Below are positions 4,267 through 59,259 of a stretch of DNA of 64,000 nucleotides, in pieces. The position numbers were made by a program, and so were the translations under genes. The DNA lies in the NCBI GenBank assembly GCA_015143295.1, contig CM026562.1, positions 17,140,041 to 17,204,040 of the forward strand, written 5' to 3'. The stretch is from Tetracentron sinense (lineage: Eukaryota; Streptophyta; Magnoliopsida; Trochodendrales; Trochodendraceae). The notes under the pieces were generated by a model. That model searched no databases. It saw nothing but the letters and a program-made list of their open reading frames with translations, and was not told where the DNA came from. The first letter of the stretch is position 1. Every line of letters begins with the position of its first letter.

Positions 4267-4407
4267 TCAACAGTAGTCGAGGTATGGCCACACATCCAAG
4301 TCCCCATCCTCCTGAGACTGCCATGGGATAGGTGGCTCCCTCTCCTCTACATACTCCTCCTCGACCCAAGGCTCGGGGTCGAGGACATCCACAGTACCTG
4401 CCGACAT
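4267..4407 (-). CDS. LTR-encoded acidic micropeptide (MSAG/PWVEEEY), element A 3' LTR
   Basis: A 46-codon ORF starts at ATG in the conserved TATGTCGGCAGGT. It begins MSAG, holds PWVEEEYVEE near residues 13-22, and ends with a WPYLDYC tail before TGA. It is strongly acidic, with no signal peptide or membrane segment. Start, core and tail recur in diverged LTRs (for example 22498-22638 and 41110-41265) with different codons for the same residues, as expected if the peptide is selected. It lies in the transcribed part of the LTR, upstream of gag in a full-length RNA. I do not recognise a family and assign no function. Alternatively, a conserved RNA element may happen to be open. Confidence 0.55.
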   Translation of the reverse strand: MSAGTVDVLDPEPWVEEEYVEEREPPIPWQSQEDGDLDVWPYLDYC

Positions 4408-4437: not shown

Positions 4438-4682
4438 GAGTACAAACTACTAGCTAACCATAACAATAGCAAAAGCATAACAATAGTGAGCAATACAAGA
4501 TATTAATTTAAAGCAATAGTGAAAGCATAAGATACATAGCCATATCTTGACATGCGTGTATGAATGCAAAAACCTCGGTAAAACTCATGTCTCGGAAACC
4601 TTTTTCGTGTCTCGGTCAAATCATGTATGTGTGTCGTGTCTTGCCTTGTACTTCATGTCTTGACTTGTTCTTGACTTGTATA

Positions 4683-5017
4683 CTTGTGAGCCAGAGGCTA
4701 GCACCCTTCCGTGGGCTACCAACCTCCTTGTCATGTTCTTGTTCCGTTTCTCTTGTGAGCCAGAGGCTAGCACCCTTCCTTGGGCTACCAACCTCCTTGT
4801 CATGTTCTTGTTCCGTTTCTCTTGTGAGCCAGAGGCTAGCACCCTTCCTTGGGCTACCAACCTCCTTGTCATGTTCTTGTTCCGTTTCTCTTGTGAGCCA
4901 GAGGCTAGCACCCTTTCTTGGGCTACCAACCTCCTTGTCATGTTCTTGTTCCATCTCTCTTGTGAGCCAGAGGCTAGCACCCTTTCTTGGGCTACCAACC
5001 TCCTTGTCATGTTCTTG
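4683..5017 (-). repeat. 69-bp minisatellite, five units
   Basis: Unit starts are 4683, 4752, 4821, 4890 and 4959, with only a few substitutions between units. 69 is divisible by 3, so long ORFs appear on both strands; I treat them as by-products. Each unit pairs an AGGCTAGCACCC stretch with GGGCTACCAACCT, a possible imperfect hairpin. Confidence 0.9.
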
Positions 5018-5985
5018 ATTCATCATATACAAATACAATCTTGGAAAACCCGGTTTCATGCATGCATGCGTGCTTGTGTGCTTGTCAATAGTGGTAATCA
5101 TGATGACATACTTGAATGGGCGGATCACATGACTATGGCATTTCAATCCTTAACATAGTGGTATAAAAATTTAGGCAACATATAGCACATTTGAGCAATT
5201 TATCATCCCTAAGAAAACCTACACAATTTCTATTTCCATTTTCTTCATTAAGTCCATTTATCCCTTGTTTAGTCATTTTATCAAACACATAGCATGCAAG
5301 GTTCCTTAATGGTTCATCTTCTTCTTTTTAGTGCCTACTTTCCATCCAAAAATCAAGGTATGTTCATTATTGGTAAAGTACCCATCCACCATTTCCATCA
5401 CACACATCACCCAACATACACCTCGGCATCCAATCGCCACATCAACACCCACACACATCCATACCCTTTGCTTATCTTATTTAGGTTCATTGGAGATGAT
5501 ACATTTCATATGGGAGGCAAACATAATAGCATAAATCATATTTCATAAGGAAAACCTAGATTATTGTTAGGGGAAGTTAGTAGAGTGTACTAACCTTGAA
5601 TCGAAGCTTGATCTTGGTGTAGACCTTGATTTAAACTCCAACTTGGAAGAAGAAAGCCCTTACTCAAACTATACTTTCTTGGGTAGGAAACCCTCTTGAA
5701 AATACCGTAGAGAGTGCTGCCCTAGCTTGAGAAGGGAACCCCACACGAGCTTGAGTTGAAATCTTGAAGAAAACGTGCTTGGGGACGATCTAGGGTCTTC
5801 ACCCCTTTGATTTCTTCTCCAATGGAAAACCCTATTTGCAAATCCCCTTCTCCTCTCTCTCTATCTCTCAAAATCCCTTAAGAGTTGTGAATGAAGCCCT
5901 AAAGGCTCGGGCAAGCCTTAAGGAGAAAGGGTTTAACCCCCAAAAGACGATAAAGCCCTTACTGAAATTTCTGCAAAAACGCGAA

Positions 5986-9826: not shown

Positions 9827-9961
9827 CTGTGCGATTAAGTAACTAATATAAGTGGATTTCAAATAATAACAAGCATCATACATAGGTAACCCTTAGTATA
9901 GAAACTCACAAAGCAAACCATAGAAATTTTACACAATTTAAATTCTAGAATTCGTGCGTAC
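9827..9961 (-). other. Putative spliceosomal intron between gag and protease, element A
   Basis: On the minus strand CAAG|GTACGC at the gag end and CGCACAG|GC at the protease start bound a 135-bp, T-rich sequence with in-frame stops. The phases of the two sides agree. The same donor is found in elements C, G and K. Function is inferred from the splice-site pattern only. Confidence 0.65.
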
Positions 9962-11805: not shown

Positions 11806-11946
11806 TCAACAGTAGTCGAGGTATGGCCACACATCCAAGTCCCCATCCTCCTGAGACTGCCATGGGATAGGTGGCTCCCTCTCCTCTACATACTCCTCCT
11901 CGACCCAAGGCTCGGGGTCGAGGACATCCACAGTACCTGCCGACAT
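11806..11946 (-). CDS. LTR-encoded acidic micropeptide, element A 5' LTR
   Basis: This is the 46-aa copy identical to 4267-4407. Being in the 5' LTR, it would lie in the RNA leader upstream of gag and could act as an upstream ORF. Confidence 0.55.
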   Translation of the reverse strand: MSAGTVDVLDPEPWVEEEYVEEREPPIPWQSQEDGDLDVWPYLDYC

Positions 11947-15079: not shown

Positions 15080-15199
15080 CTAATGGTAACCCTCTACTGG
15101 AGGTTCCTCAAAAGGCTCCTCGACGTACTCCTCCTCCACCCATGGACCAGGAGCACAAACATCAAATGGAGCAGCTGCTCCGCCATCACCTGCCGACAT
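15080..15199 (-). CDS. LTR-encoded acidic micropeptide, element C
   Basis: A 39-aa ORF from ATG at 15199 to TAG. It begins MSAGDGGAAAPFD, has PWVEEEYVEE near residues 19-28, and ends EGYH. It is the short form shared with F, K and M; compared with element A it has an extra GGAAAPFD stretch and lacks the WPYLDYC tail. Confidence 0.55.
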   Translation of the reverse strand: MSAGDGGAAAPFDVCAPGPWVEEEYVEEPFEEPPVEGYH

Positions 15200-20532: not shown

Positions 20533-20676
20533 CTGAAATTTTAGCTAGTTACATCAATTCAAGCCTCAACAGTGTATACACGTAGGTATATATATATATA
20601 GCATACCAACTACGTACACAAGGAATAAAACATAACATAACAATCATGAATAAGGAAAATAACTCCTAACGCGTAC
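20533..20676 (-). other. Putative intron between gag and protease, element C
   Basis: 144 bp bounded on the minus strand by CAAG|GTACGC and ATTTCAG|GA. The sequence is close to the element K intron, including a TA-rich run. It contains in-frame stops. Confidence 0.65.
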
Positions 20677-22497: not shown

Positions 22498-22638
22498 ATG
22501 TCGGCAGGTATCGAAGAAACCCTCGACCTTGAGCCTTGGGTCGAGGAAGAGTACATAGAGGAGAGGGAGCCATCTATTCCGTTACAGTCACAAGCGGATA
22601 GAGATTTTGACGTGTGGCCATACCTCGACTACTGTTGA
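22498..22638 (+). CDS. LTR-encoded acidic micropeptide, LTR O
   Basis: A 46-aa ORF begins MSAGIEE, has PWVEEEYIEE at residues 13-22 and the same WPYLDYC tail as element A. It differs from A at about a dozen residues and has several synonymous changes in the core, yet start, length and stop are kept although the LTR is old and solo. Confidence 0.55.
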   Translation: MSAGIEETLDLEPWVEEEYIEEREPSIPLQSQADRDFDVWPYLDYC

Positions 22639-31643: not shown

Positions 31644-33136
31644 TTCTCCCCCTTTTTGGCACAATTGCCAAAGGAAGGCAAGAAGCCAATATTCCAAAAA
31701 ATATACCAATTTAACAAAAGTGAAATATCAAGGCAACCACAGTACAACCAATCAAATGCAAACAATGAGGGACTAAAGAGTGGGGAACAAAATAGAAGTA
31801 TAAAGCACAAACTCCCCCTCAACAACTCAAGCACAAAACTCCCTCTCAACAACTCAGGCACAGAACTCCCCCTCAACAACTCAACTTAATCTTCTCTCCC
31901 TAAGATCAAGGATACCACCAAAATCAGGGCACCTATGCTAGAAGGGCCCATGCAAAACAAAAAACACACACACACACACACACAAATATCATGTGCCACA
32001 CAGACATGCATCAGAAGCATTCCAAGCAATAGTAATTTAAAATTACAAATCCAATGAAGACCATGATTAGTTAGTCCGATTGAGGATACCCATCTAACTA
32101 AATCTCATTGAATGCTAAAGCATAGCCAATTCACTTAGATACATTTAATGAACAGTTCAAAAGTGAAGCAATATGTGTGTAGTGGTTGTCTGACAAGATA
32201 CTAGATCAAGGTTTCTTTCCCTTTCCAAGGATATGACATTAACCACTAAGGGGACTCCCGAAGACATAAATCTTAGAAGTCAAACCTAGTTAGATCTAGA
32301 TATGACGATTTTTTACATTTTAGTGCTCCTTTATCCATTTTATTTGACTCAATATTTTTCTTTTATTTTTGGTCAAATACCTCAAAACTTTGTAAGATTT
32401 CTTTTGATGATCTTTATCTGATCATATCTTTTCATGCAATGAAGGCTTTCACACTATCTAGGTAGGTAGTCCTGGCTATTAGTAGCAGGGGCTTTCACTC
32501 TAGTGACCCAGATAGATACCTACTGTCCGCCTAGGTAGCCATTTCATACTGTTTGCATCCAATATTGACTTTCATACTATCCCAATAGGTAGCCCTTTTC
32601 ATTGCAACAAATTAAGCTCATGGAGGATACACAAAATGGGGATGACTAACAAATATGGTCATTCTAGATTGGTCATCCAAGGTCACACTTAAGGGATAAG
32701 CCATACACCTACAGATTGGAAAATAGCTCTCTTAATAGAATCAGTCAGAGTGCATGTGAAATTTGTAAAGCATACACACATGCATAAGTCTCTAACTGTT
32801 CAAGATAAAATCGATCTAATTTTCAGCCTAACCAAGAGACTATGAAGGTGATATATCCTCAATCAGCAACAAATCATGTTCAACCCTGGACAAGTATAGA
32901 AATAAAGATCACACAAGGAATGCAGATCATGCAAGTCAAGTAAGGGTAACATGAAAAAATCTTTTTGGATTTTATGGTTTTTTAATGTTTTTGGATTTCT
33001 CAAAATAAAGAAAACAGAAAAACATACCAAAGTAAATAAACACTAGTAAAAAAAAGACTACTAATATACACAAATAACATAGCACTAGGACAAGATAAAA
33101 CACTAACAACACACCCTAGGCTATGACAGGCACGGG
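31644..33136 (-). other. Element E non-coding internal region and polypurine tract
   Basis: The minus strand at 31644-31660 reads CAAAAAGGGGGAGAA against the 3' LTR. The rest lacks any pol motif. It contains a (CA)n run at about 31968-31986, a CTCAACAACTC short repeat at 31810-31885, and CTTTCAYACTATC / AGGTAGCC repeats at 32450-32610. I see no gene. Confidence 0.7.
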
Positions 33137-35067
33137 CTAAGTGAAGCCCTTCAGGTCTTCCTTTCTCACCCAAACGGTTTTAGAAGTTTGATTGACCCTA
33201 TGGTCTCTAACTGTATCAGTTGAGGTAGGTATGACCTTTTGCCTTTTCCTCTGTTCCTCCTTTTCCAGGATTGAGTCCTAGAATTATGGTGGACATTTTG
33301 GTTCTCCCTGTTACCTCCTCTATATCTAGCATGAGGAGTGTCATGACCATGCCACTATCTAGAGTTGTGAGCCATCTTCATCACATCTTCACACAAACTC
33401 CTAGACTTCTCCACTAGGACCTCAACTCTCCTTTGAAGATTCCCATTAAAGTTGTGTTGGTTCCTTGAACCATGATTGGGCATTCTTTGAAGTTTAGGAC
33501 ATCGAGGCTTAATATAACCCTTCACTCCATAGTTATGACATGTAGGAATGAATTTCTGAATAGAAGGGTCTTTCCCTTTAGCAGGAGGGCGCCTTTTAGG
33601 ACCAGGCTCAGTGTTCGAGGTGGATGGAGTTCCCTTCATATCTCCACACCTCTGATTTTGCTCAAGATCAGCCAACTTGATTTTAAAACTTGTCTTTTCA
33701 GCAAGACAAACATGTAAATCAGATTCAAGTAGCTGAGTCTTGGCAAGGAGAGAAGCCTTCTCTTCCTCAAGCTGTGACACAAGAGCTCTCAACCCTGAAG
33801 TCACTTGGTCTAAGGCACCTTTTTCCATTTAAATAGATTTGATCTTTTTGGACATGGAAAACTGAACATTTTTTAGCTTTAGGCATTCCTGAAATAGTTC
33901 ATTATAGACTGCCTCAAGCTCTCCCTCAGAATCTGAGTCATTCTGACTCTCTTCATCCTCCTCACCATCACTACATTGTTGGTAACTCACAGCATTTGGA
34001 GAAGATTTCTCAATCCCAGATAAGGATGCAGTGAAGGCCACATAACCCCTAGTCTCCTCACAAAAAGAACTATCTGATTCCTCAGATTCAGATTCACTGT
34101 CATCCCTTGCCTTGCCCTTAAATCTTTTCTTATTAGAGCACTCAGTAGCAATATGACCGTAGCCTTGGCATTCATAGCATTGAACACCTTGGGATTTCTT
34201 ATCCACACTTTTAAAATGTTTCTTATTTTCAAAGTGCTTAGACTTGGGCTTTTCAAGGGATTTTTGTCCTTTCGGATTAAATCTCTTATTAAGTTTCAAA
34301 AATTTTCTAAATTTCTTTGCAAATAAAGCCAACTCTTCTTCTTCATCCTTAGAGTCACTATCTGAACCATCTATGGAATCCTTGACAGATTTCAAGGCAA
34401 TAGATTTTGGTTTCTTAGATGGGTTCAGATTTAACTCATAGGTTTGGAGTGAACCAACCAACTCTTCAAGTTTGAGAGCATCAACATTTTTGCTCTCCTC
34501 GATGGCGGTAACCTTCGATCGAAATCTCTCAGGTAGAGATCTCAATATTTTCCTAACAATTTTGGACTCTGGAATTCTTTCCCCTAGATTGAAACTAGAA
34601 TTGACAATGTCACTCAAATTAGTATAAAAACTATCAAAAGTTTCATTCTCATCCATCATCAGTTTTTCAAACTTAGAGGTCAATAATTGGAGTTTGGAGA
34701 TCTTGACAGTTGTAGTCCCTTCATGGGTGATTTGAAGAATGTCCCATGCCTCCTTCGAAGTGTCACATGTAGAAATACATCGAAATTCTTCGAGTGTGAC
34801 AGCAGCGAAGATTGCATTTAGACCCTTATTGTTCCATCTACAACTCTCAAGTTCTACAATGGTCCATTCAGAAGAAGGTTTAGGGATGGTCTGTTCATTT
34901 ATGGTCTTTGTTGGATGGGTCCAACCTTGTTCAATGGAGAACCATACTCTCTCATCTAATATTTTTAGAAACGCTCTCATTCGAGCTTTCCAATAGGCAT
35001 AATTATTCCCATCAAATAATGGGGGACAAGAGATGGATCCTCCCTCTCTTTGGAGATTCATATTCAC
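33137..35067 (-). pseudogene. gag: Element E gag (SIRE-like), interrupted by stop codons
   Basis: Gag starts at ATG 35067, only about 45 bp from the primer site, with SISCPPLFDGNNYAYWKARM. The first open stretch has 412 aa, with capsid-like sequence, an acidic DSDSKDEEEE segment and a CCHC knuckle CYECQGYGHIATEC at about 297-310. A TAA at 33829-33831 is followed directly by ATG in the same frame. A further 157 aa hold a Leu/Glu-rich coiled coil and a second knuckle in which the second Cys and the His are both Tyr (CHNYGVKGYIKPRC). After another stop (33355-33357) the SIRE-like tail (VWVRKEDLKG) continues to about 33137. Two stops therefore break it. Confidence 0.8.
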
Positions 35068-35110
35068 CGAAAAATATGAGACAAGATCACACTAAAATGT
35101 TAGTGAACCT

Positions 35111-35122
35111 GCTCTGATACCA
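35111..35122 (-). other. Primer-binding site, element E
   Basis: TGGTATCAGAGC on the minus strand, two bases from the 5' LTR end; matches initiator tRNA-Met. Confidence 0.85.
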
Positions 35123-35124
35123 AT

Positions 35125-36613
35125 TGAAAAAAACAAATACAATTCGGTGAACCTCAAATCCGATGTTTGAGTTGAGAATCTACAAGTTCGAGGAGATGGT
35201 TCGGTTTCCCTAATAGTCTGTCAACTCTCTTTAATGATTTTAACTTAAGTTATTTAACTCAAGAGAAGATGATAATTAAGTGCGGAATAAGGAAAACCAA
35301 GCAAACTACAACAAAGGATTTTTACGTAGAAACCCTTCCGGAAAAAACCACGGGACCTAGTCCAGCCATGAAAATCCACTAAGACAAAGTAAACAAGAAC
35401 TTACAAGACTCGAACTTGACTCCTTCGGACTCGACACCACGATCCTTCAGTTCTTAGTCCTCTATGCCTCGAAAATCACCACATACTCTCAAGTCCGGTG
35501 ATCAACCGCAGCCGCTTGTACTTCTCTTTATGTCTCGAAAACAGTCCACGATCTTCCGATCGATCTCCGTCAATGACGGCTTCGGATTCCACCGACCAAA
35601 TCACTCTACCACGATCCTTCTCGGATCGATCTCCTTCACAAAGGCTCCAGAATACTCCGGCCAAGGTGTTCTATCTAGAATGGGTTGATGGTTTGATATA
35701 AATCAATACCTAGATGGACTCCATCAAATGGCAAGTCCAAACAAGCAAGAATGAAACTTTAGGCTTGCAAACTCTAGGTTTAATGCATTAACAAAGGGGA
35801 GGAGAGCACTAAGTTTTCCAGAGTATTTATGAACTCTAGAAGGAGTTAAAAACCCTCTCAATACTTCCCCAAAGTTCTCCTCCACGAAGTGGAAGGGTTC
35901 TATATAAATAGGGAATCAAAAACCAAGTTTTAGAAGGTGTTAAAGTTTCTAAAAACTCAAAAAAGCATGAAAACCGATTTTGGCAAGAAATCCATATCAG
36001 GGTCGACCCATGGGGCACATTCGGTCGACCGAATGGTGCCTTTCGATCGACCGGATGGTCCTCAGGGTCGACCCACACTTTTCCAACTCTCTGTCTGATT
36101 TCACCATACAAATTTTTCCATACCCAGGGTCGACCCAAAATGGTCAGGGTCGACCCTGAGGTGCCAACCCAAATTTAAAACTTCATTTTTGGGTCTTACA
36201 CCCTTCATAAAAGTTGTAGCCCTTTTTGACACGGTCGTTTTGACATATTATAGAACAAAATCTGAGCTACATTTTGTGAGATACGCTCAAAACAAGCAAC
36301 CTTGGTTTTTTGAAAAATTTCAGATCTTAAAACAAGTTTTGCACTGTTTATCTCATCACCTAGGGTCCGTATGGTTAGACTAAGTCACTTACCACCTAAG
36401 GCATCATGTTAGAATAATTCTAAGTCAAATCCCACCTATGATAGTATGGTATCTAGGTCACTTACCATCCTATGAAGGAAATGATCAACCCGAGTCTTCA
36501 ACGGTCTTCAACTTCACTTGCTCGCGAATGCTTGACGACAACGACACAAGATACACACCTAGACTCGCTATTTTAACACCGGAATATGCCAATACAAAAA
36601 TATAGACTTTTCA
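35125..36613 (-). repeat. Element E 5' LTR, lacking the U3 start (1489 bp)
   Basis: Colinear with the 3' LTR, but on the minus strand it starts at an internal TGAAAAGTC, which aligns with TGTAAAGTCC inside the 3' LTR. About 300 bp of U3 are absent. The cut end begins with TG and is flanked by CTACT, matching the other side. Confidence 0.75.
35999..36158 (-). promoter_or_regulatory. GTCGAC-type palindrome array, E 5' LTR
   Basis: Five palindromes (GGGTCGACCC, CGGTCGACCG, CGATCGACCGG and two more) lie in two clusters around a spacer (about 36090-36120) with ACTCTCTG and CCATACAAA. The layout matches the Ty3 LTR arrays in this window. Confidence 0.65.
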
Positions 36614-37232: not shown

Positions 37233-38117
37233 TTCATGTTTTTGCAGAATTTCATTAATGGCTTTTTCGGCATTTGGGTGTTATACCCTTTACATATAAG
37301 GCTCGCCCGAGTCTTAAGGCTCATTCTCAACACATAGAAGATTTGAGAGATAAGGAGAGAAGAGAAAGGGGTTTCTAAACCTAGGGTTTTCTTTTGAGGA
37401 GGAATCAAAGGGTTGAAGACCCACTATCATCCTCAAGCTTGTTCTTCTTCAAGTTCTCGGCTCAAGCTCGTGATGAGCACTTTTCCCAATCTAGGGTAGC
37501 GACTCACGCACATTTTTGCAAGGGGTTTCTTCTCTCATTTGTCAAGGTTGGTACCTTGTGCTACCCTCTTAGTTATAGTTTTCTCTTTTCTTTTCTATTC
37601 TTTGCTTTCCCCTATCTATAACTATAATATGAGTTGTAATGTGTGAATGGTGTGAATGGAGATGGATATTGGTGATTGGATGCCGTGCGAATGATGTGAT
37701 GAATGAAAAGGGGAAGGGCATTGTACCAATAATTAACATACGAGTATGTTGTGAATTTATAATCCACCTAGAAAGGCATGATATAGGTTTGATCAATAAT
37801 ATACACACCCCATGTTTGATGAAATGCCAAGGTGAATAAAACGAATTGTAAATTAAGAAAATACATGCATAATTGCTTATGGAATTGCTAGGGCTTATGA
37901 TAGTGTGATTATTTACTTTCCCTAAAATGGTATGAATATTGACTTGCTCCAATTATTGATGTCTTATGTATTGTGAATTACCCAAATGTCATATTTAAAT
38001 TCAAATACAAGTATGTACACGATTCCACAAGCACGGCATGCATGACATTATTTACCGAGGTTTTTCAAGGACAATAATTAGAGGTGGGACATATCCTACG
38101 ATATATTTTACCTCGAT

Positions 38118-38450
38118 TTTGACAAGAACAAGACAAGCATGAGCATTTAGGAAGAAGGGTCTCCCTTCCCTCACAAGTAGTTTATTTTCCAAGTAAGCAA
38201 GATACATGGCATGACAAGCATGAGCATTTAGGAAGAAGGGTCTCCCTTCCCTCACAAGGAGTTTATTTTCCAAGCAAGCAAGATACATGGCATGAAATGC
38301 ATGTGCATTTAGGAAGAAGGGTCTCCTTTCCCTCACAAGTAGTTTATTTTTCAAGCAAGCAAGATACATGGCATGGCAAGCATGAGCATTTAGGAAGAAG
38401 GGTCTCCCTTCCCTCACAAGTAGCATGAACACATTTATTTTTCCAAGCAA
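38118..38450 (+). repeat. Minisatellite of LTR F
   Basis: Four units of about 85 bp, each with AGGAAGAAGGGTCTCCCTTC and GCAAGCAAGATACATGGCAT. GAAGGG-TCT-CCCTTC forms a perfect short hairpin in each unit. The same unit family occurs in K, L and M. Confidence 0.85.
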
Positions 38451-38746: not shown

Positions 38747-38866
38747 ATGTCGGCAGGTGATAGTGGAGCGGCTGCTCCTTTTGACATCTGTGCTCTGAGC
38801 CCTTGGGTGGAGGAGGAGTATGTGAAGGAACCTGTGGAGGAACCTCCGGCAGAGGGTTACTATTAG
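38747..38866 (+). CDS. LTR-encoded acidic micropeptide, LTR F
   Basis: A 39-aa ORF begins MSAGDSGAAAPFDIC, has PWVEEEYVKE at residues 19-28 and ends EGYY before TAG. One extra base before the ATG shifts the upstream in-frame ATG of element G out of frame, so the MSAG start is the shared one. Confidence 0.55.
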   Translation: MSAGDSGAAAPFDICALSPWVEEEYVKEPVEEPPAEGYY

Positions 38867-40915: not shown

Positions 40916-41109
40916 AAAGGACTCATATGTTTTATAGACACGGTTTGATTTTCATTAGAGTTGTGATTCAATAAATGGTTATGTATGATGTTGTTTTAAA
41001 TGAGTATGATCTTTATCTTCCACCACTTACACATGATGCTTTGCTCATTATTATTATTGTTAGCTAGGAGCTTGTACTCGCTGAGTATTCCATGCTCAGT
41101 TGTACTTTT

Positions 41110-41265
41110 ATGTCGGCAGGTACACGAGTCCCTTTTGACATTTGTGCCCTGAGTCCTTGGGTTGAGAAGGACTACAGTGAGGAAGAACCTTATGAAGATT
41201 CGGTAGTTGAGCCTCAGACTGAGGCGAGAGACTTAGACCATTGGCCCCACAGGAGTGACTATTGA
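41110..41265 (+). CDS. LTR-encoded acidic micropeptide, LTR G
   Basis: A 51-aa ORF, the longest copy. It begins MSAGTRVPFDIC, has PWVEKDYSEEE from residue 16, and ends DLDHWPHRSDY before TGA. It combines the PFDIC stretch of the short form with a WP-containing tail like that of A and O. An additional in-frame ATG lies 18 bp upstream. Confidence 0.5.
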   Translation: MSAGTRVPFDICALSPWVEKDYSEEEPYEDSVVEPQTEARDLDHWPHRSDY

Positions 41266-41319: not shown

Positions 41320-41538
41320 TTTACATGTCATATTTTGTATAAACTTGGAATACTTGTTAAGTTTATAGAAGAAAAGAAAAAGTTGGTGGTATTTCCGCCA
41401 TATTTTAGCTTCTGCACTCTGTATTATATTTCCATTAGAGCATGTTATACCTTGTTCTTTGCAGGATGGTTTGCCAGGTTATGTGTAGTCACACCTAAAG
41501 TATCCCTTAACCCTTAGGGGGTATTTTTGGGCGAGACA

Positions 41539-43085: not shown

Positions 43086-43218
43086 GTACGCAAGAATTCC
43101 AGAGTTTAAGTTGTGAATAATTTCTATGGTTTGATGAGTTGTTATTTACACTAGGAGTTACCTATGTATGATGTATGTTTTTATTGAAATCTATTGATGT
43201 TAGTGTTTAATCGCACAG
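43086..43218 (+). other. Putative intron between gag and protease, element G
   Basis: 133 bp from GTACGC to CGCACAG, colinear with the 135-bp sequence of element A. Both splice-site-like ends are kept although gag and protease carry lesions. Confidence 0.6.
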
Positions 43219-44535: not shown

Positions 44536-44661
44536 CTAAGAGGTGTAGCCGCCCAAGTCTCCGGCTCCCTCCTCAGAAGGCTCACCTTCACCTCCTTCCT
44601 CGAGGTAAGTCTCCTCAACCCACGGCTCTACCGTGTACTCCTGCTCTATACCTGCCAAGAC
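44536..44661 (-). pseudogene. LTR-encoded micropeptide remnant, LTR I
   Basis: The frame is kept (AGIEQEY, then PWVEETYLEE, then a Gly/Glu-rich tail ending GGYTS) for 41 codons, but the MSAG ATG is GTC here. An upstream in-frame ATG at 44730 makes a longer 64-aa reading. The body differs greatly from the others, while PWVEE.Y remains. Confidence 0.5.
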
Positions 44662-48261: not shown

Positions 48262-49338
48262 TGTCGCGACCCAAAATACCCCCTAGAATTAGGGATACAT
48301 TGACTCGTGAACGCTGTATCATACCTCTAGTATAATACATAAGGCACACGTGGAGACCTGTTAGAAACACAAACATTTCTAGCGAAAGCGATAACGAATG
48401 CACAGTGGAATAAAATACTAAACATAGCGGAAGCAAAGCGATACTCCTATAACTCAGTTCAAGTATGAACCTACAAAAGTATATACATGTGAGAAACCTA
48501 AAAGTGGAGTGGACAAACCCCACACTCACATAACAAAATAACATTTTAAGTTCTAAGTCCGATCAACAAAATTCGAAGTCTCGACACCTATCTATAGGAC
48601 CATCGTCCTGATAATGATCCATGGAAGGCTCTGGGTCGAAGTACTCTTCCTCCAACCATGGTTCTGCGCCACATAGATCAAACGGAGCCCGAGCACCTAC
48701 CGATGATAACAAATATCGGCTGAGCGTGGAATGCTCAACGTATACAAACTAATAACAATAAAGCAATATAGCATGGAGCATACGAAGCATGGAGATTGAA
48801 ATCCTTAAAGCATAGTAAAGTGTAGAAACCATGTAAGCATATGTGATGAAATCCGAAATCCGAAACCAAAACCATATCCGTGTGAGTCATGCGGTAATCA
48901 TAGCCTTGTGAGTTTCTTGTGAGTTACTTAGAGTCATTATGATCCGTAGAGACATAGAGATACCATAGAGCACAACATAGAGCCAATACCATAGAGATCT
49001 TAGAGCATTTTCTTTTATAATCCGTAGAGCTTGTGAGATGATCTTAGAGCTTATCATAGAGTCCCTTGTGAGCATAGTATGATCCGTAAGCTTGTGAAAC
49101 GATCTTAGAGAAATCATAGAGTTACTTAGAATCGTTCCTTATTGGTCATTTAGTGAAAAACCCCTTTTTGTACTTTTAGAAATTCATGGAAAGCATCGAT
49201 TCATGCGAGACATGCGAGCATATGACCATATGAGAGAAATCACCATATTTAGCATAAGAATCCCTTATTTCATCAAACACTTAGAGTGCATCATACTAGT
49301 ATCTTTCATCCAAGTATATAATCATATACTTTCACACC
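48262..49338 (-). repeat. LTR J, first part (Ty3/gypsy 3' LTR)
   Basis: Starts TGTCGCGACCCAAAATACC after ACTAG (48257-48261), interrupted by element K with TSD AAAGT, and resumes at 59260. It contains GAGCTTGTGAGATGATC-type short repeats (48890-49130) in place of the minisatellite. An RNA hairpin GTGG...CCAC is at 48509-48523. Confidence 0.85.
48563..48706 (-). pseudogene. LTR-encoded micropeptide remnant, LTR J
   Basis: 47 codons stay open (APFDLC, then PWLEEEYFDPEP, then a DFEFC tail), but the MSAG start reads SSVG with no ATG. It is the most diverged plain copy and still keeps the PW.EEEY core and the length. Confidence 0.5.
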
Positions 49339-49570
49339 AAAGTTGTCGCGACCCAAAACCCACCCTAGGAGTTAGAGTGAATCTTGGACGACTTAACCAT
49401 TACTTACATGACTTGCTTGACGAACCAACCTGCAAAACTCCCAGGACACATACAATAGAGGATAACAGCGGAAGCATAACTACAAAATACAACGGAAGTC
49501 TAACAAACCTCTAAGTATATATATACACATGGTCCAAGTTTAATACAAAAGAAAACAAAACAAAGAAAGT

Positions 49571-49584
49571 GCGGACACGCCCGC
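49571..49584 (-). other. Predicted RNA hairpin, element K (compensated)
   Basis: GCGGGCGTGTCCGC on the minus strand. Relative to GGTGGGCATGTCCACC in A, G and O the arms changed together (GTGG/CCAC to GCGG/CCGC). Confidence 0.5.
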
Positions 49585-49648
49585 CAAAATACATGGATAT
49601 AATCACTCATGCTCACCCACAGCTAAACCACTTAGAATCTACAACCAC

Positions 49649-49768
49649 CTAATGGTAACCCTCTACGGGAGGTTCCTCCAAAGGCTCCTCGACGTACTCC
49701 TCCTCCACCCAAGGGCTCGGAGCACAGATATCAAATGGAGCAGCTGCTCCGCCATCACCTGCCGACAT
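49649..49768 (-). CDS. LTR-encoded acidic micropeptide, element K 3' LTR
   Basis: A 39-aa ORF, MSAGDGGAAAPFDIC start, PWVEEEYVEEP core, EGYH end. It differs from the C copy by a few residues. It is the version carried by the youngest element. Confidence 0.6.
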   Translation of the reverse strand: MSAGDGGAAAPFDICAPSPWVEEEYVEEPLEEPPVEGYH

Positions 49769-50079
49769 AAGAAGTACGGCTGAGCATGGAATACTCAGCG
49801 GGTACTAAGCACTAACCAACAGTCTTAGCGTACAGATAGCATACATAAAGCAGGAAAAATTCTTATAAGTTAGAAGGAAACAATTCATAGCATATAAAGC
49901 AGGAATAATTTATATCATGACAATAAAGTAAAGGAGTATATAATCATGCTTGAATTCATAAAAGCCGATAAAACCCTTTAAAATACCGTGCACTTGACTT
50001 GACTGAAAACACCATTTCCTTGCTTGAAAACTTGTCATGTTTGTCTTATCTTATCGTATCATGCATGTCATGCCATGTC

Positions 50080-50330
50080 TTGCCATGCTTGCTTGGAAAA
50101 GTAAACTACTTGTGAGGGAAGGGAGACCCTTCTTCCTAAATGCTTATGCTTGTCATGCCATGTCTTGCCATGCTTGCTTGGAAAAGTAAACTACTTGTGA
50201 GGGAAGGGAGACCCTTCATCCTAAATGCCCATGCTTGTCATGCCATGTCTTGTCATGCTTGCTTGGAAAAGTAAACTACTTGTGAGGGAAGGGAGACCCT
50301 TCTTCCTAAATGCTCATGTCATGTCCTTTC
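50080..50330 (-). repeat. Minisatellite of element K 3' LTR
   Basis: Three units of about 85 bp with GAAGGG-AGA-CCCTTC hairpins (plus-strand reading) and GCTTGCTTGGAAAAGTAAAC. Homologous to the F array. It is repeated at 57625-57875 in the 5' LTR. Confidence 0.85.
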
Positions 50331-51245
50331 ACTTGTGAGATGTCCTTGTGAGATGTACTTGCGAGGGAAGGGAGGCCCTTCTTATGTTATGTATGCACGA
50401 TTGTCTTGTCCTTGCCAAAAGCGAGGTAAAACATATCGTAGGATATGCCCCACCTCTAAATCTCATTCTTGAAAACCTCGGTAAATCATGTCATGCATGC
50501 GTGCTCGTGGAAGCGTGTACATACTTGCATTTAAATTTAAATGTGACATTCGGAGAGTTAACAATACATAACAATCCATAGACATCAATCAATTGAGCAA
50601 TTCAATATTTGTGTAATTTAGGGAAAACAAGAAGGCACACTATCATAACTCTAGCAAATTTCCATAAACCTTAAACATGAATTTTCTTAATTTCTTATTC
50701 ATTTCATTCATCTTGGCATTTCATCAAACATGGTGTGTTCATTATTTATTAACCCTACAACATGCTTTTCTAGGTGGGTTATACTCACATCACACTTGTA
50801 TGTTCATTATTAGTACAATGCCCTTTCCCATTCGTTCATCACATCATCCACACGGCATCCATTCGCCAACATCCATCTTCATTCACCACTCATACCACTA
50901 ATCTCATAACACATATATAGGTGAAAGAAAACAAGAAGAAATAAAGGAAAAGGGAAGCTATAACTAGAAGGGTAGTAAGAAGTACCGACCTTGACAAATG
51001 GGGGAAGAAATCCTCCACCAAACGCACGTGAGTTGCTGCCCTAGCTTGAGGAGAGTGCCCCACACGAGCTCCACGAATGCTTGAACCGAAATCTTGAAGA
51101 AATCGAGCTTGAGGTTGATCTAGGGTTTCAAAACCCTTAGATTTCTCTTCAAAATGGAAACCCTAGGTTTAGGAACCCTTTCTCCTCTCTTCTAATCTCC
51201 CAAATCTTCTAAGGGTTGAGAATGAGCCCTAAAGGCTCGGGTAAT

Positions 51246-51255
51246 CCTATATAAG
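51246..51255 (-). promoter_or_regulatory. TATA box, element K LTR
   Basis: Minus strand CTTATATAGG, about 60 bp downstream (LTR sense) of the palindrome array. The 5' LTR copy is at 58791-58800 and would drive the full-length RNA. Confidence 0.65.
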
Positions 51256-51314
51256 AAAGGGTATAACACCCGAATGCCGAAATTGCCCTTAGTGAAAATT
51301 CTGTAAAACGCGAG

Positions 51315-51500
51315 GACCGAGCGATCGGTGTTAATGACCGATCGATCGGTCGCCTACCGATCGATCGGTTTCATAACCGAGCGATCGGTTGAAATTTCAC
51401 TCTCTGGAAAATTTCCCCATAGAAAAATCTCAACCAGTCGATAGCCTCCGAGCGATCGGTTTTGGACCGATCGATCGCTCCATGGACCGAGCGATCGGTG
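51315..51500 (-). promoter_or_regulatory. TCGA-palindrome array, element K 3' LTR
   Basis: Seven undecayed units, ACCGATCGATCGGT or ACCGAGCGATCGGT and near variants, around an ACTCTCTGG...CCATAGAAA spacer. Confidence 0.68.
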
Positions 51501-51709
51501 GTCTGCAGGTCCAAACTGTTTTGGCCATAACTTTTGACTCGTTCGTCCGATTTTGACGATTCAACTTGCGTTGGGTTCGTACTTCGAAAACGAACATTTC
51601 TGACGTTTCAGAATTTCTAATTTCTTCCTTATTTATTAATTGCATTACGTTAAAGGAAAAATGGCTACGAAGGGTCATGCATAAATGTGAAAAGGTCCGG
51701 GGCTCTACA

Positions 51710-51810: not shown

Positions 51811-54800
51811 TCATTCAAATATTCCTGGGTACTTCGCTTTGACTTCGGCTTCACGCTCCCATGTAGCTTCTTCCCGAGCATGGTGTTGCCATTGTACTAG
51901 GACCAAATGGATAGTCTTGTTGCGAAGCACTTGATCTCTTCGATCCAATATGTGAATCGGCTTCTCAACCAACGTGAGATCTTCTCGAATTTCCAACGGT
52001 TCCAATTCTAGTATATGCGAAGGGTCCGCAATGTACTTTCGAAGCATAGACACGTGGAAAACGTTGTGAACCGCGGCCATGTGAGGTGGAAGAGCTACTC
52101 GATAAGCAACTTCACCAACCCGCGTGATAATCTCAAACGGTCCAACATAGCGAGGACTAAGCTTGCCTCTTTTGCCGAATCTCATAATCCCTTTGCTAGG
52201 AGATACTTTCACAAAGACTCGATCCCCTACTTGAAATTCCAAGTCCCTGCGGCGCACGTCTGCATAGCTCTTTTGGCGATCTTGAGCGGCTTTCAATCGA
52301 TCCCGAATGATCTTAACTGTGTTTACAGTTTGCTCAATCAATTCTGGACCAAGTAATTTCCTTTCTCCTACCTCATCCCAATAGAGGGGAGACCTACAAC
52401 TTCGCCCATACAAGGCCTCAAATGGTGCCATTTGGATACTCGCCTGATAGCTATTGTTGTAGGCGAACTCCACCAAAGGCAAGTGCTCTTCCCAACTGCC
52501 TTTGAAATCCAGCATACAAGCCCGAAGCATATCTTCTATTACTTGGTTCACCCTCTCGGTTTGTCCATCCGTTTGTGGATGAAAAGCAGTGCTGAAATCA
52601 AGTCGGGAACCCATGGCTTCCTGAAAGCTTTTCCAGAATCGCGATGTGAATCTTGGATCCCGATCTGACACAATACTAACGGGCACTCCGTGCAACCTCA
52701 CCACTTCCTTGATGTACAAAGCGGCTAATTGGCTAGAGTTGAAAGTAGTTCGGTACGGTAGGAAATGAGCGGATTTCGACAAACGATCCACTACTACCCA
52801 TATCGCATCTGAGCCCCTTGCCGTCTTTGGCAAGCCAACTATGAAATCCATGGATATATTCTCCCATTTCCACTCGGGAATCGGAAGGGACTGTAATAGA
52901 TCGGCGGGCCGCATGTGTTCTGCTTTCACCTGTTGACACACCAAGCACCGTGCTACATATTCCGCAACCTCCCTCTTCATATTCCGCCACCAAAAGTGAC
53001 TCTTGAGGTTCCGGTACATCTTTGTACCCCCTGGATGCACTGTGTACTTCGAACGGTGTGCTTCATCCAAAATCTCTCTTCGAAGATCTGCATTGGCTGG
53101 GACGCACAGCCTTCCCTTGAACGTGATAGCACCTCGGCTAGTAAGAGAGAAGTCCTCACTACCTTTAGCAACTTCCTTGTCCCGATAAGCCAACAATTCA
53201 GCATCCGTGGCTTGGTATTCTTGGATCAAATCTATAATGTATGGCCGAACCGTGACATTTGCCAAGATAGGACTACGGACAGAGTCATTCACACTAATGT
53301 CCAGATTTGCCAAGTCTTCAAGTAGCTTCCATTCTTGCACTAACATGCATGCTAATAACCCCGGAGGTCTTCTACTCAAAGCATCAGCCACTACATTTGC
53401 TTTACCCGGGTGGTATTGAATGGTACAATCATAGTCCTTCAGAAATTCCATCCAACGCCTTTGCCTTAGATTCAGCTCCTTTTGGGAAAAGAGATACTTG
53501 AGACTCTTGTGATCAGTGAACACATAGAACTCCACCCCATAAAGGTAATGACGCCAAATCTTAAGTGCAAACACGACCGCCGCAAGCTCCAAGTCGTGCG
53601 TAGGATAGTTCTTCTCATGCTCCTTCAACTGCCTTGATGCATAGGCAATGACTTTCTTGTGCTGCATGAGTACACACCCAAGTCCAACGTGTGAGGCATC
53701 ACTATACACCTCATACCCATAAGGTCTGGATGGCACCGTAAGGACAGGAGCTGTGGTAAGCCTCTTCTTCAGTTCCGTGAAACTGATCTCACACTTGTCG
53801 CTCCATACAAACTTAGCGTTCTTCCTTGTCAGGTAAGTGAGCGGTGCTGCAAGGCTGGAGAAACCCTCTACGAATCTCCTGTAGTAGCCTGCCAACCCAA
53901 GAAAACTGCGTATCTCCGTGACACTCTTGGGCCTCGCCCAATTCATGACTGCCTCTATCTTCTTTGGATCCACCGAAATGCCTTCCGCCGATACAACGTG
54001 GCCTAGGAATGACACCTCTTCCAACCAAAACTCACACTTGCTAAGTTTGGCGTATAGCTTGTGCTCTCTTAGCATTTCCAAAGCAAGGCGTAGGTCGCGT
54101 GTGTGATCTTCCCGTGTCTGGGAATAAACCAAAATGTCATCAACAAATACAATCACGCACCTATCAAGATATGGCCGGAACACCCGGTTCATCAAATCCA
54201 TAAAGGCTGCCGGCGCGTTCGTGAGTCCAAAAGGCATCACTAAGAACTCGTAATGTCCATATCGAGTCCTGAAAGAAGTTTTGGGAACATCTTCCGCCTT
54301 AATCTTCAACTGGTGATAACCCGATCGAAGATCTATCTTTGAGAAAAATCTCGCTCCCTTCAACTGATCGAACAAGTCATCAATCCTAGGCAAGGGATAC
54401 CTATTCTTTATAGTGACTTTGTTCAATTGCCTGTAATCGACACACATCCGCATCGAGCCATCTTTCTTCTTAACAAACAACACCGGGGCACCCCATGGTG
54501 AGACACTTGGTCGAATGAAGCCAAGGCCTTGCAATTCCTCCAACTGAGTCTTTAACTCCTTGAGTTCAATAGGGGCCATTCTATACGGAGCCCTGCAAAC
54601 AGGAGCTGTGCCTGGTGCAAGCTCGATCATAAACTCAATCTCCCTGTCTGGAGGCAATCCTGGCAACTCCTCTGGAAATACATCCAGGAACTCACTCACA
54701 ACCGGAGTAGTTGATGAGTCCTTTGCCTCGGGGTTAGCTACGCCCAACGCCGCAAAACGAGCAATAGATCTGCTTTTCAACCCGCGAAAGTGGAATGGTT

Positions 54801-55136
54801 TTCCTTCTACTGGCTTGAAGAGTACCATTTTCTCAAAGCAAGCTACATGCCCATGATGTGCTGCTAACCAATCCATTCCCAATATGACATCAAAGTCTTG
54901 GAATCCAAGGACGATGAGATCAACCGCCAACTCGTGGCTTCCAACTTGGACCACACCATTTCTATACACTTTATCTGCCAATACTGTTTTGCCAAGAGGA
55001 GTCGAAATGGCTAACTCCGGTTCTAGCTGACTTGGCTCCCCAGAAAAGCCTTCTGAAAAACTCGGCGAGACAAACGAATGAGTAGACCCGGTATCAATCA
55101 ACACTCGAGCCAAATACTCATTGACTAGTAGGGTTC
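51811..55136 (-). CDS. pol: Element K pol polyprotein (intact)
   Basis: An open frame of about 1,107 codons from the exon boundary 55136, with no stop before the natural end. Counting from codon TTG at 55113: protease DTG at about 7-9; reverse transcriptase about 170-400 with [12 protein letters not shown] and FVDD near 323-326; RNase H about 465-590 with Asp in YSDAS, TDHKSL and DALSR; integrase H2C2 near 686-726; D-D-E at about 756, 817 and 853; chromodomain in the last 50 residues ([17 protein letters not shown]). It copies RNA to DNA in the particle and integrates it; the chromodomain probably directs insertion to marked chromatin. No ATG fits the start, and translation from gag by splicing (see 55137-55280) is inferred. 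All key residues I checked are present. Confidence 0.93.
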
Positions 55137-55280
55137 CTGAAATTTTAGCTAGTTACGTCAATTCAAGCCTCAACAGTGTATACACGTAGGTAAATATATA
55201 TATAGCATACCAACTACGTACACAAGGAATAAAACATAACACAACAATCACGCATAAGGAAAATAACTCCTAACGCGTAC
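55137..55280 (-). other. Putative spliceosomal intron between gag and protease, element K
   Basis: 144 bp, minus strand from CAAG|GTACGC to ATTTCAG|GA, TA- and T-rich, with a possible branch region (GACGTAACTAGC) about 20 bp before the AG. It contains a TAA in the protease frame, and the gag frame stops soon after the donor. Both flanks are in the same phase, so removal gives one continuous reading frame through the usual gag-protease border of the family. The body shares little with the 133-135 bp version in A and G, but donor and position are kept. Confidence 0.7.
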
Positions 55281-56529
55281 CTTGCACCACATCGTCAGAT
55301 GCAAGTGCATCACCCTCTGTCAAGGCAAAAACTCGCCCCTGGTTCGCCTGGCGAGACTGAGGTGTAGACCGGGTAGTCTGAGATGACGCCTGGTATGATC
55401 CTGCTGGGCGTGTCGGGGGCCTACTATCCTGAGACTGGCCTGGTAAATGCCGGCTAGGGCAATCCCTGATCATGTGGCCCTGGCGACCGCAATGATAACA
55501 TCCACCAGATGCTCTTCGGTAATCTCCTGCCGGATGCCTTTTGCCGCATGAAGTGCAGACCTCATATGTGTAGGCTGGAGGGACCGGAGGTGGTGTATAC
55601 CTCGCTGCCTGAGGGGTAACTGGCCGTGGGGCCGGAAGAGCTTGAGGTCGAGGTGCCTGTGGCACGTACTGCCGGGGTGCTGGAGGCGCATAAGTCGGCC
55701 TCATCTGTGGTGCTGGCCATGTATACTGATAAGGACCAGTTCGGGCCCGCCTCTCTAAAGGTACCAAACCACTAGATTGGCCTCTCGCCAATTCTCTCTT
55801 CTTGGACACAGTCTCTGAATTGGTCTCAACCAACAAGGCTTTATCCACTACTTCGGCGTAAGTGGCATGCCTGAAGACCGACACTTTCTCCATGATGACA
55901 TCCTTGAGCCCTTGCTCAAACCTCCTCGCCTTCATTGCCTCGGTGGCAATCATATGTGTCGCGAAGCGTGATAGCTCCGAGAACTTGGCCTCATAAGCGG
56001 CCACAGACATCGAACCTTGCTCAAGGTTGATGAATTCTCTCTCTTTCCTTTCCCGAGCTCCAACCGGGAAATACTTCTTATAGAACGTGTCCTTAAACTC
56101 CTCCCAAGTCCAAGGTTGACCCTGCATGGTCAAGTCTCGTGTCCTCAATGCGGACAACCACCAATGGTGGGCTTCACCCTCTAGCATGAAAACTGCCCAT
56201 GCTACCCTATCCTCCTCTGTAGGCGAGAGGACCGCAAAAATCTTCTCCATCTGGAGGATCCACGCCTCTGCTGCGAGAGGGTCCACACTCCCACGGAAGG
56301 ATGGAGGCCTCAATCTCCTGAATGCCTCAACTCCAGCCGTACGATGTACTGGAGCTGCGGGCGGTGGAGTAGGTGCCGCTGATGCCGGTATAGTTTGCCG
56401 AGCCGCCAGGATGGCGAGTGTCTCAGCAATAGAGCCTAAGACCTGGGAGAGGTCCGGCTGCTCATCCTCATCTCTGGAAGAAGATGAAGCTCTGGTGTGT
56501 GGTCCACGACCCCGTGTGCCCCGCCTCAT
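55270..56529 (-). CDS. gag: Element K gag (capsid/nucleocapsid, intact)
   Basis: 419 aa from ATG at 56529 (MRRGTRGRG) to a stop at 55270 when unspliced. It has a basic N-terminus, SIAETLAILAAR, a capsid domain (AEAWILQMEKIF, FMLEGEAHHWW, FYKKYFPVG, LEQGSMSVAAYEAKFSEL), a Pro/Ala-rich linker with YAPPAPRQY-like repeats, and a CCHC knuckle CYHCGRQGHMIRDC at about 344-357. A CTSCGKRHPAGD stretch lies before it. It forms the particle that packages the RNA. The last residue before the putative splice is within VVQ. No lesion seen. Confidence 0.93.
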   Translation of the reverse strand: MRRGTRGRGPHTRASSSSRDEDEQPDLSQVLGSIAETLAILAARQTIPASAAPTPPPAAPVHRTAGVEAFRRLRPPSFRGSVDPLAAEAWILQMEKIFAVLSPTEEDRVAWAVFMLEGEAHHWWLSALRTRDLTMQGQPWTWEEFKDTFYKKYFPVGARERKEREFINLEQGSMSVAAYEAKFSELSRFATHMIATEAMKARRFEQGLKDVIMEKVSVFRHATYAEVVDKALLVETNSETVSKKRELARGQSSGLVPLERRARTGPYQYTWPAPQMRPTYAPPAPRQYVPQAPRPQALPAPRPVTPQAARYTPPPVPPAYTYEVCTSCGKRHPAGDYRRASGGCYHCGRQGHMIRDCPSRHLPGQSQDSRPPTRPAGSYQASSQTTRSTPQSRQANQGRVFALTEGDALASDDVVQGTR

Positions 56530-56888: not shown

Positions 56889-57193
56889 TGTCGCGACCCA
56901 AAACCCACCCTAGGAGTTAGAGTGAATCTTGGACGACTTAACCATTACTTACATGACTTGCTTGACGAACCAACCTGCAAAACTCCCAGGACACATACAA
57001 TAGAGGATAACAGCGGAAGCATAACTACAAAACACAACGGAAGTCTAACAAACCTCTAAGTATATATATACACATGGTCCAAGTTTAATACAAAAGAAAA
57101 CAAAACAAAGAAAGTGCGGACACGCCCGCCAAAATACATGGATATAATCACTCATGCTCACCCACAGCTAAACCACTTAGAATCTACAACCAC

Positions 57194-57313
57194 CTAATGG
57201 TAACCCTCTACGGGAGGTTCCTCCAAAGGCTCCTCGACGTACTCCTCCTCCACCCAAGGGCTCGGAGCACAGATATCAAATGGAGCAGCTGCTCCGCCAT
57301 CACCTGCCGACAT
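57194..57313 (-). CDS. LTR-encoded acidic micropeptide, element K 5' LTR
   Basis: Identical 39-aa copy of 49649-49768. In the 5' LTR it lies about 1.5 kb downstream (in transcript sense) of the TATA box and about 670 bp before the gag ATG, so it would be an upstream ORF of the full-length RNA. Confidence 0.6.
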   Translation of the reverse strand: MSAGDGGAAAPFDICAPSPWVEEEYVEEPLEEPPVEGYH

Positions 57314-58534
57314 AAGAAGTACGGCTGAGCATGGAATACTCAGCGGGTACTAAGCACTAACCAACAGTCTTAGCGTACAGATAGCATACATAAAGCAGGA
57401 AAAATTCTTATAAGTTAGAAGGAAACAATTCATAGCATATAAAGCAGGAATAATTTATATCATGACAATAAAGTAAAGGAGTATATAATCATGCTTGAAT
57501 TCATAAAAGCCGATAAAACCCTTGAAAACACCGTGCACTTGACTTGACTGAAAACACCATTTCCTTGCTTGAAAACTTGTCATGTTTGTCTTATCTTATC
57601 GTATCATGCATGTCATGCCATGTCTTGCCATGCTTGCTTGGAAAAGTAAACTACTTGTGAGGGAAGGGAGACCCTTCTTCCTAAATGCTTATGCTTGTCA
57701 TGCCATGTCTTGCCATGCTTGCTTGGAAAAGTAAACTACTTGTGAGGGAAGGGAGACCCTTCATCCTAAATGCCCATGCTTGTCATGCCATGTCTTGTCA
57801 TGCTTGCTTGGAAAAGTAAACTACTTGTGAGGGAAGGGAGACCCTTCTTCCTAAATGCTCATGTCATGTCCTTTCACTTGTGAGATGTCCTTGTGAGATG
57901 TACTTGCGAGGGAAGGGAGGCCCTTCTTATGTTATGTATGCACGATTGTCTTGTCCTTGCCAAAAGCGAGGTAAAACATATCGTAGGATATGCCCCACCT
58001 CTAAATCTCATTCTTGAAAACCTCGGTAAATCATGTCATGCATGCGTGCTCGTGGAAGCGTGTACATACTTGCATTTAAATTTAAATGTGACATTCGGAG
58101 AGTTAACAATACATAACAATCCATAGACATCAATCAATTGAGCAATTCAATATTTGTGTAATTTAGGAAAAACAAGAAGGCACACTATCATAACTCTAGC
58201 AAATTTCCATAAACCTTAAACATGAATTTTCTTAATTTCTTATTCATTTCATTCATCTTGGCATTTCATCAAACATGGTGTGTTCATTATTTATTAACCC
58301 TACAACATGCTTTTCTAGGTGGGTTATACTCACATCACACTTGTATGTTCATTATTAGTACAATGCCCTTTCCCATTCGTTCATCACATCATCCACACGG
58401 CATCCATTCGCCAACATCCATCTTCATTCACCACTCATACCACTAATCTCATAACACATATATAGGTGAAAGAAAACAAGAAGAAATAAAGGAAAAGGGA
58501 AGCTATAACTAGAAGGGTAGTAAGAAGTACCGAC

Positions 58535-58538
58535 CTTG
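58535..58538 (-). other. Possible leader splice donor, element K
   Basis: Minus strand CAAG|GTCGGTAC (GT starts at 58534) in the R region. CAAG|GT followed by TAC recurs at this spot in other Ty3 LTRs (for example 40072 in G, CAAG|GTTAGTAC). Paired with the acceptor before gag it would remove about 2 kb of leader. Confidence 0.3.
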
Positions 58539-59259
58539 ACAAATGGGGGAAGAAATCCTCCACCAAACGCACGTGAGTTGCTGCCCTAGCTTGAGGAGAG
58601 TGCCCCACACGAGCTCCACGAATGCTTGAACCGAAATCTTGAAGAAATCGAGCTTGAGGTTGATCTAGGGTTTCAAAACCCTTAGATTTCTCTTCAAAAT
58701 GGAAACCCTAGGTTTAGGAACCCTTTCTCCTCTCTTCTAATCTCCCAAATCTTCTAAGGGTTGAGAATGAGCCCTAAAGGCTCGGGTAATCCTATATAAG
58801 AAAGGGTATAACACCCGAATGCCGAAATTGCCCTTAGTGAAAATTCTGTAAAACGCGAGGACCGAGCGATCGGTGTTAATGACCGATCGATCGGTCGCCT
58901 ACCGATCGATCGGTTTCATAACCGAGCGATCGGTTGAAATTTCACTCTCTGGAAAATTTCCCCATAGAAAAATCTCAACCAGTCGATAGCCTCCGAGCGA
59001 TCGGTTTTGGACCGATCGATCGCTCCATGGACCGAGCGATCGGTGGTCTGCAGGTCCAAACTGTTTTGGCCATAACTTTTGACTCGTTCGTCCGATTTTG
59101 ACGATTCAACTTGCGTTGGGTTCGTACTTCGAAAACGAACATTTCTGACGTTTCAGAATTTCTAATTTCTTCCTTATTTATTAATTGCATTACGTTAAAG
59201 GAAAAATGGCTACGAAGGGTCATGCATAAATGTGAAAAGGTCCGGGGCTCTACAAAAGT

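Follow-up and report, generated by a model that had tools for sequence, protein, structure and literature searches.

Short open stretches within retrotransposon repeats

The 64,000-nucleotide window analysed here (Tetracentron sinense, contig CM026562.1, positions 17,140,041 to 17,204,040, forward strand) contains elements of a high-copy, chromovirus-like Ty3/gypsy retrotransposon, whose long terminal repeats (LTRs) harbor a short open stretch coding for an acidic peptide with the core PWVEEEY, which we consider here as a candidate exon of a spliced message. All 11 such stretches listed in a preliminary description of this DNA were recovered on re-reading the sequence, seven of them on the minus strand (those starting at 4267, 11806, 15080, 44536, 48563, 49649, and 57194). 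Nine open with ATGTCGGCAGGT, contain PWVEEEY, and comprise 39-51 codons; the remaining two, at 44536 and 48563, keep the frame and the core but not the ATG at the MSAG place. The latter had been labelled as decayed, which proved wrong, as they are members of the abundant families E and F, respectively, each with at least 150 matches in the 1.16 Gb genome searched for patterns. A hairpin of the GCTGAG...CTCAGC type stands 5' of all 11 stretches, eight of which were aligned. The left edge common to most copies is T-rich and ends in YAG|GT (Y, pyrimidine), resembling a 3' splice site, and it is this acceptor-like site, not a universal ATG, that delimits the stretch.

Counted from the acceptor-like site, the putative LTR exon of the family D copy, whose coordinates the finding carries, spans 41120..41265 (+), is directly preceded by GGCAG|GT, and codes for G-TRVPFDICALSPWVEKDY...SDY before a stop; its hairpin, GCTGAGTATTCCATGCTCAG, is located upstream of the acceptor at 41080..41099 (+). 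On the plus strand, corresponding exons are found in family A2 (22508..22638), family C (38757..38866), and a second family C copy, C2 (62974..63083). On the minus strand they occur in the 3' LTR (4267..4397) and 5' LTR (11806..11936) of family A, in family B' (15080..15189), in the 3' LTR (49649..49758) and 5' LTR (57194..57303) of family B, and in the copies of families E (44536..44651) and F (48563..48696) devoid of the MSAG-place ATG.

The elements in the window display the gypsy order of gag, protease, reverse transcriptase, RNase H, and integrase as judged by Pfam, and weak chromodomain matches (PF00385) were located at the right place after integrase, scoring 22.9 and 19.5 bits (E=8e-5 and 1e-3, respectively), below the Pfam cut-off of 25.1. 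A primer site (TGGTATCAGAGC) and a purine tract were also found. The family B element has an LTR pair of 2366 bp that is 99.8% identical (3' LTR, 49344..51709; 5' LTR, 56889..59254), a pol exon from protease to the chromodomain-like end (51811..55136), and gag (55270..56529), all on the minus strand. LTR length and primer site would fit a Tekay/Del chromovirus, a candidate placement for the element. A genome-wide count gave 11,954 exact matches to the 28-nt hairpin context and 427 to its 29-nt F-type variant, with no occurrence of the reversed pattern in either case.

As to its place within the LTR, a TATA-like box follows at +209 to +237 past the exon start in all eight LTRs inspected with an approximate matrix, for instance at 41338..41345 (+) in family D (+218) and at 57063..57070 (-) in the 5' LTR of B (+233). 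This box ranked top or tied in A2, D, B, C, E, and F, although its score in F was low; in A it came second and was weak, and in B' it came fifth, and about 165-215 bases of LTR remain beyond it. Since the box lies downstream, the stretch should belong to the unique 3' region (U3), being absent from the 5' leader and located near the 3' end of the genomic RNA, and we therefore place it probably in U3, outside the leader.

Selection on the frame and the question of its start

The stretch is, with high confidence, protein-coding and under purifying selection. We compared synonymous to nonsynonymous ratios between changes common to several copies and those private to one copy (Fisher's test). For family F, 40 of the first 100 copies listed among the 427 hairpin matches were hand-picked on contigs C1-C4, and 38 remained after dropping L135 (wrong side) and L145 (B-like); for the families carrying the MSAG ATG, 40 of the first 100 listed among the 11,954 matches, all on C1, were chosen to avoid LTR pairs. 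The F, B-like, and A-like samples were thus selected by the upstream hairpin alone and not ranked by open reading frame (ORF). Changes counted as shared when present in at least four copies in F (those in two or three copies being excluded), at least three in the B-like and A-like groups, and at least two in D. In F, shared changes were 30 synonymous to 21 nonsynonymous against 13:59 among private ones (P=3.4e-6), and the contrast persisted with thresholds of three (35:32, P=2e-5) or two copies (43:50, P=1e-4). Comparable differences appeared in the B-like group (25 copies; 14:11 versus 13:40, P=0.007) and the A-like group (15 copies; 15:10 versus 9:25, P=0.010). Shared changes concentrated at third codon positions, with 14, 8, and 29 at positions 1, 2, and 3 in F, 6, 2, and 17 in B-like, and 6, 5, and 14 in A-like copies. 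Wrong frames and downstream sequence gave no signal in these three groups: for F, the two wrong frames yielded P=0.35 and 0.94 and the 99 bases past the stop P=0.90, and all B-like and A-like controls reached P of 0.17 or more. This contrast in three groups indicates that the frame was selected in the lineages that multiplied and decays freely after insertion; an intact frame was present in 24 of the 38 F copies. A first F sample of 20 copies plus the window copy was ranked by protein similarity and thus biased (shared 22:12, private 19:18), and was replaced by the hairpin sample.

The earlier proposal of a peptide under selection is hence supported for F, the B-like, and the A-like copies, owing to their excess of synonymous shared changes, but not for family D, the very source of the finding's coordinates. 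There, 28 young copies ranked by DNA similarity showed no selection (shared 4:17, private 15:30), and the exon was as divergent as its flanks, or more. A comparison between families of the window gave omega-like values of 0.23-0.33 in six of seven pairs, which overlap; the exception, C-C2 with 2.3 resting on seven changes, speaks together with family D against the explanation proposed below. Likewise, the statement that indels come only in threes requires amendment: frame-breaking indels exist in single copies, two among the 28 D copies and a few among the 38 F copies, and yet indels are fewer within the stretch than just past its stop in the F, B-like, and A-like samples.

The MSAG ATG is absent in 38/38 F copies, and 21 of these have no in-frame ATG from the hairpin to the Gly codon; analysed alone, these 21 retain the signal (shared 28:12 versus private 16:54, P=1.4e-6; controls 0.49 or more). 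As the F pieces began at the hairpin, ATGs further upstream were checked in the 20 protein-ranked F copies, 17 of which have none before the preceding stop. Furthermore, ten places around intron-less gag-pol junctions were fetched, six of which form an F-related set G (L160-L163, L166, L167). In all six, an in-frame TGA upstream of the Gly, separated from it by two codons, closes the frame. Two of the other places are F-like and ATG-less, one (L168) belongs to another family with TTGTCTTCAG|GT and a diverged core, and at the last (L169) no hairpin was seen. A near-cognate start upstream may be used in F, whereas in G the frame is closed by the TGA.

A candidate acceptor and a proposed partner donor

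Entry into the stretch is likely to occur by splicing. The YAG|GT is present in all families seen, as judged by sequence only, and in 55 distinct copies the codon preceding the Gly is GCA, GTA, ACA, or ATA (A, V, T, or I); the pattern that retrieved these copies demanded YAGGT, and no locus failed that demand. In the hairpin sample, YAG was kept in 29 of 38 F copies. When four LTR-leader stretches of 2.4-2.9 kb were scored with an approximate plant matrix, the AG ranked as acceptor first in B, second in A and E, and third in D.

A fitting donor is present where gag ends. Just 5' of the gag stop, families A, B, D, E, and F carry the motif |GTACG(C/T) after ...DVVQ-G in phase 1; it scored best of all donors within gag in A, B, and D, and is present in E and F. 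At 133-150 nt past this donor an acceptor occurs, after which protease continues in frame. The resulting gag-pol intron measures 144 nt in B (55137..55280, -; donor AAG|GTACGC in phase 1, acceptor TTTCAG|GA), this donor being the one proposed for the LTR exon, 135 nt in A (9827..9961, -), 144 nt in B' (20533..20676, -), 133 nt in D (43086..43218, +), where the gag frame is broken upstream of the donor, and 135 nt in family E. T content, measured for six of the seven introns, is 41-44% versus 18-31% in their flanks. The junction expected after removal of this intron was found at 79 genomic places in several families (backward control, 0), which indicates that spliced RNA arose, was copied by reverse transcription, and entered the genome. 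As the LTR exon also has phase 1, splicing from the gag-end donor could reach it, at a distance of about 5.5 kb, with the frame preserved.

With a probability of about 0.52, we propose from these sequence features that the stretch serves as the last coding exon in a spliced message of the retrotransposon, having the gag-end donor as its partner, and we give the same, slightly better than even, chance to Gag being the protein that it extends. The exon would then be located near the 3' end of the full-length RNA, within the U3 of the 3' LTR. Usually, the gag-end donor would be spliced to the protease exon, generating Gag-Pol; sometimes it would instead be spliced to the LTR acceptor, skipping pol, and the product would be Gag ending in ...SDDVVQ-G followed by the acidic tail with PWVEEEY. 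More tentatively, and with a chance that we set just short of even, a single donor would thus serve two acceptors, the near one for Gag-Pol and the distant one in U3 for a Gag with a selected acidic tail. The tail might mark a particle-only or regulatory Gag isoform, and its role is a guess: it could act in particle make-up or RNA export, for example by deciding the fate of intron-containing genomic RNA, as CERV, a Gag-frame protein, does in Cer1.

A number of observations speak against this proposal. The pattern for a junction between the gag donor and the LTR exon had no genomic match, although an RNA for Gag with the tail would be without the purine tract and the greater part of U3 and so would hardly be copied, which explains the null result without lending support. 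Agreement in phase is expected by chance in one of three cases and was probably fixed once. Copies of set G have no gag-pol intron and still carry the LTR exon, and the F copy L096 has CAA at the pol acceptor. Nine of the 38 F copies, scattered on the tree (eight changes), have lost the AG of the LTR acceptor; seven of these nine losses are G to A at a CHG site, equalling those at another CAG in the exon (7/38). Conversely, the families with the MSAG ATG keep it in 39 of 40 sampled copies, as compared with 37 of 40 for the YAG. In-frame ATGs also exist elsewhere: within the hairpin in 17 of 38 F copies (CATGCT, also carried by A-family copies, most other F copies reading CACGCT), upstream in three of the 20 protein-ranked F copies, and farther upstream in 20 of 30 E copies, the other ten having none. 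Moreover, the splice and TATA matrices are approximations. As an observation on set G, its joined site reads AAG|GTTCGT and is itself donor-like.

The evidence at the acceptor is silent about the donor, and together with the missing gag-donor junction this leaves room for a different donor, situated in pol, in the 5' leader, or in U3 itself, by which the stretch would become the acidic end of a non-Gag protein. Strong donor-like sites do exist in U3 (AAG|GTTAGT in A and D, AAG|GTAAGA in E) and also in U5. Yet a codon-periodicity scan over whole LTRs of five family pairs revealed no second stretch recurring between pairs; it did peak elsewhere, differently in each pair, with a log-likelihood ratio of up to 14.7 at -410 for A versus D, in a tandem-repeat array. 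Furthermore, the gag-end donor alone was strong, shared, and in the right phase when the top-scoring lists were compared by eye, these covering pol for A and B only and including the gag ends of E and F. We regard such another donor as unlikely. Marginally less probable still is a free micropeptide translated from the MSAG ATG or from another in-frame ATG such as that of the hairpin, the ATG-less copies being secondary. The preliminary description favored the MSAG form, and the conserved ATG of the nine window copies (A, A2, B, B', C, D) and of the sampled ATG families agrees with it, while the hairpin and upstream ATGs of F and E agree with the wider form. The MSAG form does not extend to F, where that ATG is missing throughout. 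Against a free micropeptide in general, the 21 F copies lacking an in-frame ATG in the piece read show selection when taken alone (their shared changes may predate the loss of an ATG, though), the frame is closed in G, and a stretch that is probably U3 would be remote from the RNA's 5' end.

That the stretch acts as an upstream ORF (uORF) in the gag leader, tuning gag translation, had also been suggested, and seen from the 5' LTR it does lie upstream of gag, preceded by the hairpin. This idea found no support: the TATA-like box is downstream of the stretch in 8/8 LTRs, there is no usable ATG in G, and start codons are missing in 6/6 G and, within the piece read, in 21/38 F copies. Families A, B, D, and E, and the F copy L095 (L097 reads CTTAG), have an acceptor-like CTCAG 8-11 nt 5' of the gag ATG, suggesting that the leader may itself be spliced; given that U5 contains donor-like sites, the leader, primer site included, may be removed from the gag mRNA as an intron. 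In the window, these sites (CTCAG|GA) lie 8-10 nt 5' of the gag ATG, at 56539 (-), where the motif ends 10 nt 5' of the ATG of family B, at 11206 (-), and at 41843 (+). A spliced last exon fits better than a leader uORF, which we consider very improbable. We give even less credence to a nucleic-acid element, that is, a hairpin, splice, or packaging signal in which the open frame is incidental. At the DNA level, both the hairpin and YAG|GT show strong conservation, and D lacks a protein-level signal, but the shared changes cluster at third positions of the correct frame and the stretch is depleted of indels, which contradicts this alternative for F, A-like, and B-like copies.

Relation to known retrotransposons

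Several retrotransposons resemble parts of this arrangement, as far as the excerpts of the sources cited here describe them. Cer1, an LTR retrotransposon of C. elegans, produces the CERV protein by combining exons of the Gag frame with a 3' exon (PMC10309623). Both cases would involve a spliced message joining Gag-frame exons to a 3' exon, an acceptor shared across species in Cer1, and an element-specific product; the tail described here, however, has about 35-50 amino acids, lies inside the LTR, and is predicted only. In barley, the Ty1/copia element BARE1 produces a spliced subgenomic Gag RNA, in which removal of a 104-nt intron disables pol (PMC3735527). Both elements have a short T-rich intron where gag ends, the splicing of which sets Gag against Pol, whereas removal of the 133-150-nt intron found here brings gag and pol together in frame, and we propose a second acceptor, located distally. 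Ogre, a Ty3/gypsy element, contains a spliced intron, and a two-ORF layout is named for Bianca and Ogre (PMC6317226). As in Ogre, an intron lies between two ORFs, where splicing in a subset of transcripts gives the full polyprotein; Ogre belongs to another lineage, its intron follows GAG-PROT instead of separating gag from protease, and the passage on it mentions no LTR exon. In group A of the CRM chromoviruses, the polyprotein runs into the 3' LTR as one ORF (PMC3059260), so that coding sequence of the 3' LTR likewise forms a C-terminal extension; here, by contrast, pol terminates ahead of the LTR, with the exon located about 1.9 kb inside the latter. Finally, Tekay elements of sunflower and grasses have an additional 5' ORF of about 400 amino acids located 5' of the gag-pol ORF (PMC11728184), representing extra coding capacity in a related group, unlike the short exon in the LTR described here, and the passages give the Tekay ORF no LTR location.

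No plant Ty3 element with a spliced LTR exon was found in literature titles and abstract openings, a coverage that leaves out most subscription journals. The family D peptide had no candidate in the protein database, and five tail peptides matched no Pfam family at E<=10. Gag residues 300-419 gave 144 candidates in the protein database, none with E<=0.001, which suggests that this database may be poor in plant proteins.

To our knowledge, little is known about the balance of Gag and Pol and the handling of intron-containing genomic RNA in plant Ty3/gypsy elements. If the proposal is true, LTRs routinely treated as non-coding would hide a part of the element's proteome, and an exon selected at the protein level would have become dispersed in a genome that contains more than ten thousand hairpin copies. 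Exons this short would be missed by filters on ORF length, two surveys having used 250 codons (PMC6317226) and minimum_length=300 (PMC11728184), respectively, as stated in the excerpts of these sources. Wherever long-read RNA of a plant is available, reads spliced at the YAG|GT before PWVEEEY would make for an easy test.

Two further features of the window may be noted. The U3 regions of families A, C, and B contain tandem subrepeats of 69, 81, and 85 bp, respectively, at 4614-5120 (-), 38014-38394 (+), and 50061-50318 (-). Besides, a probable Ty1/copia element occupies 30329-35891, with gag at 33829-35067 (-) according to Pfam and 300-bp repeats 5263 bp apart.
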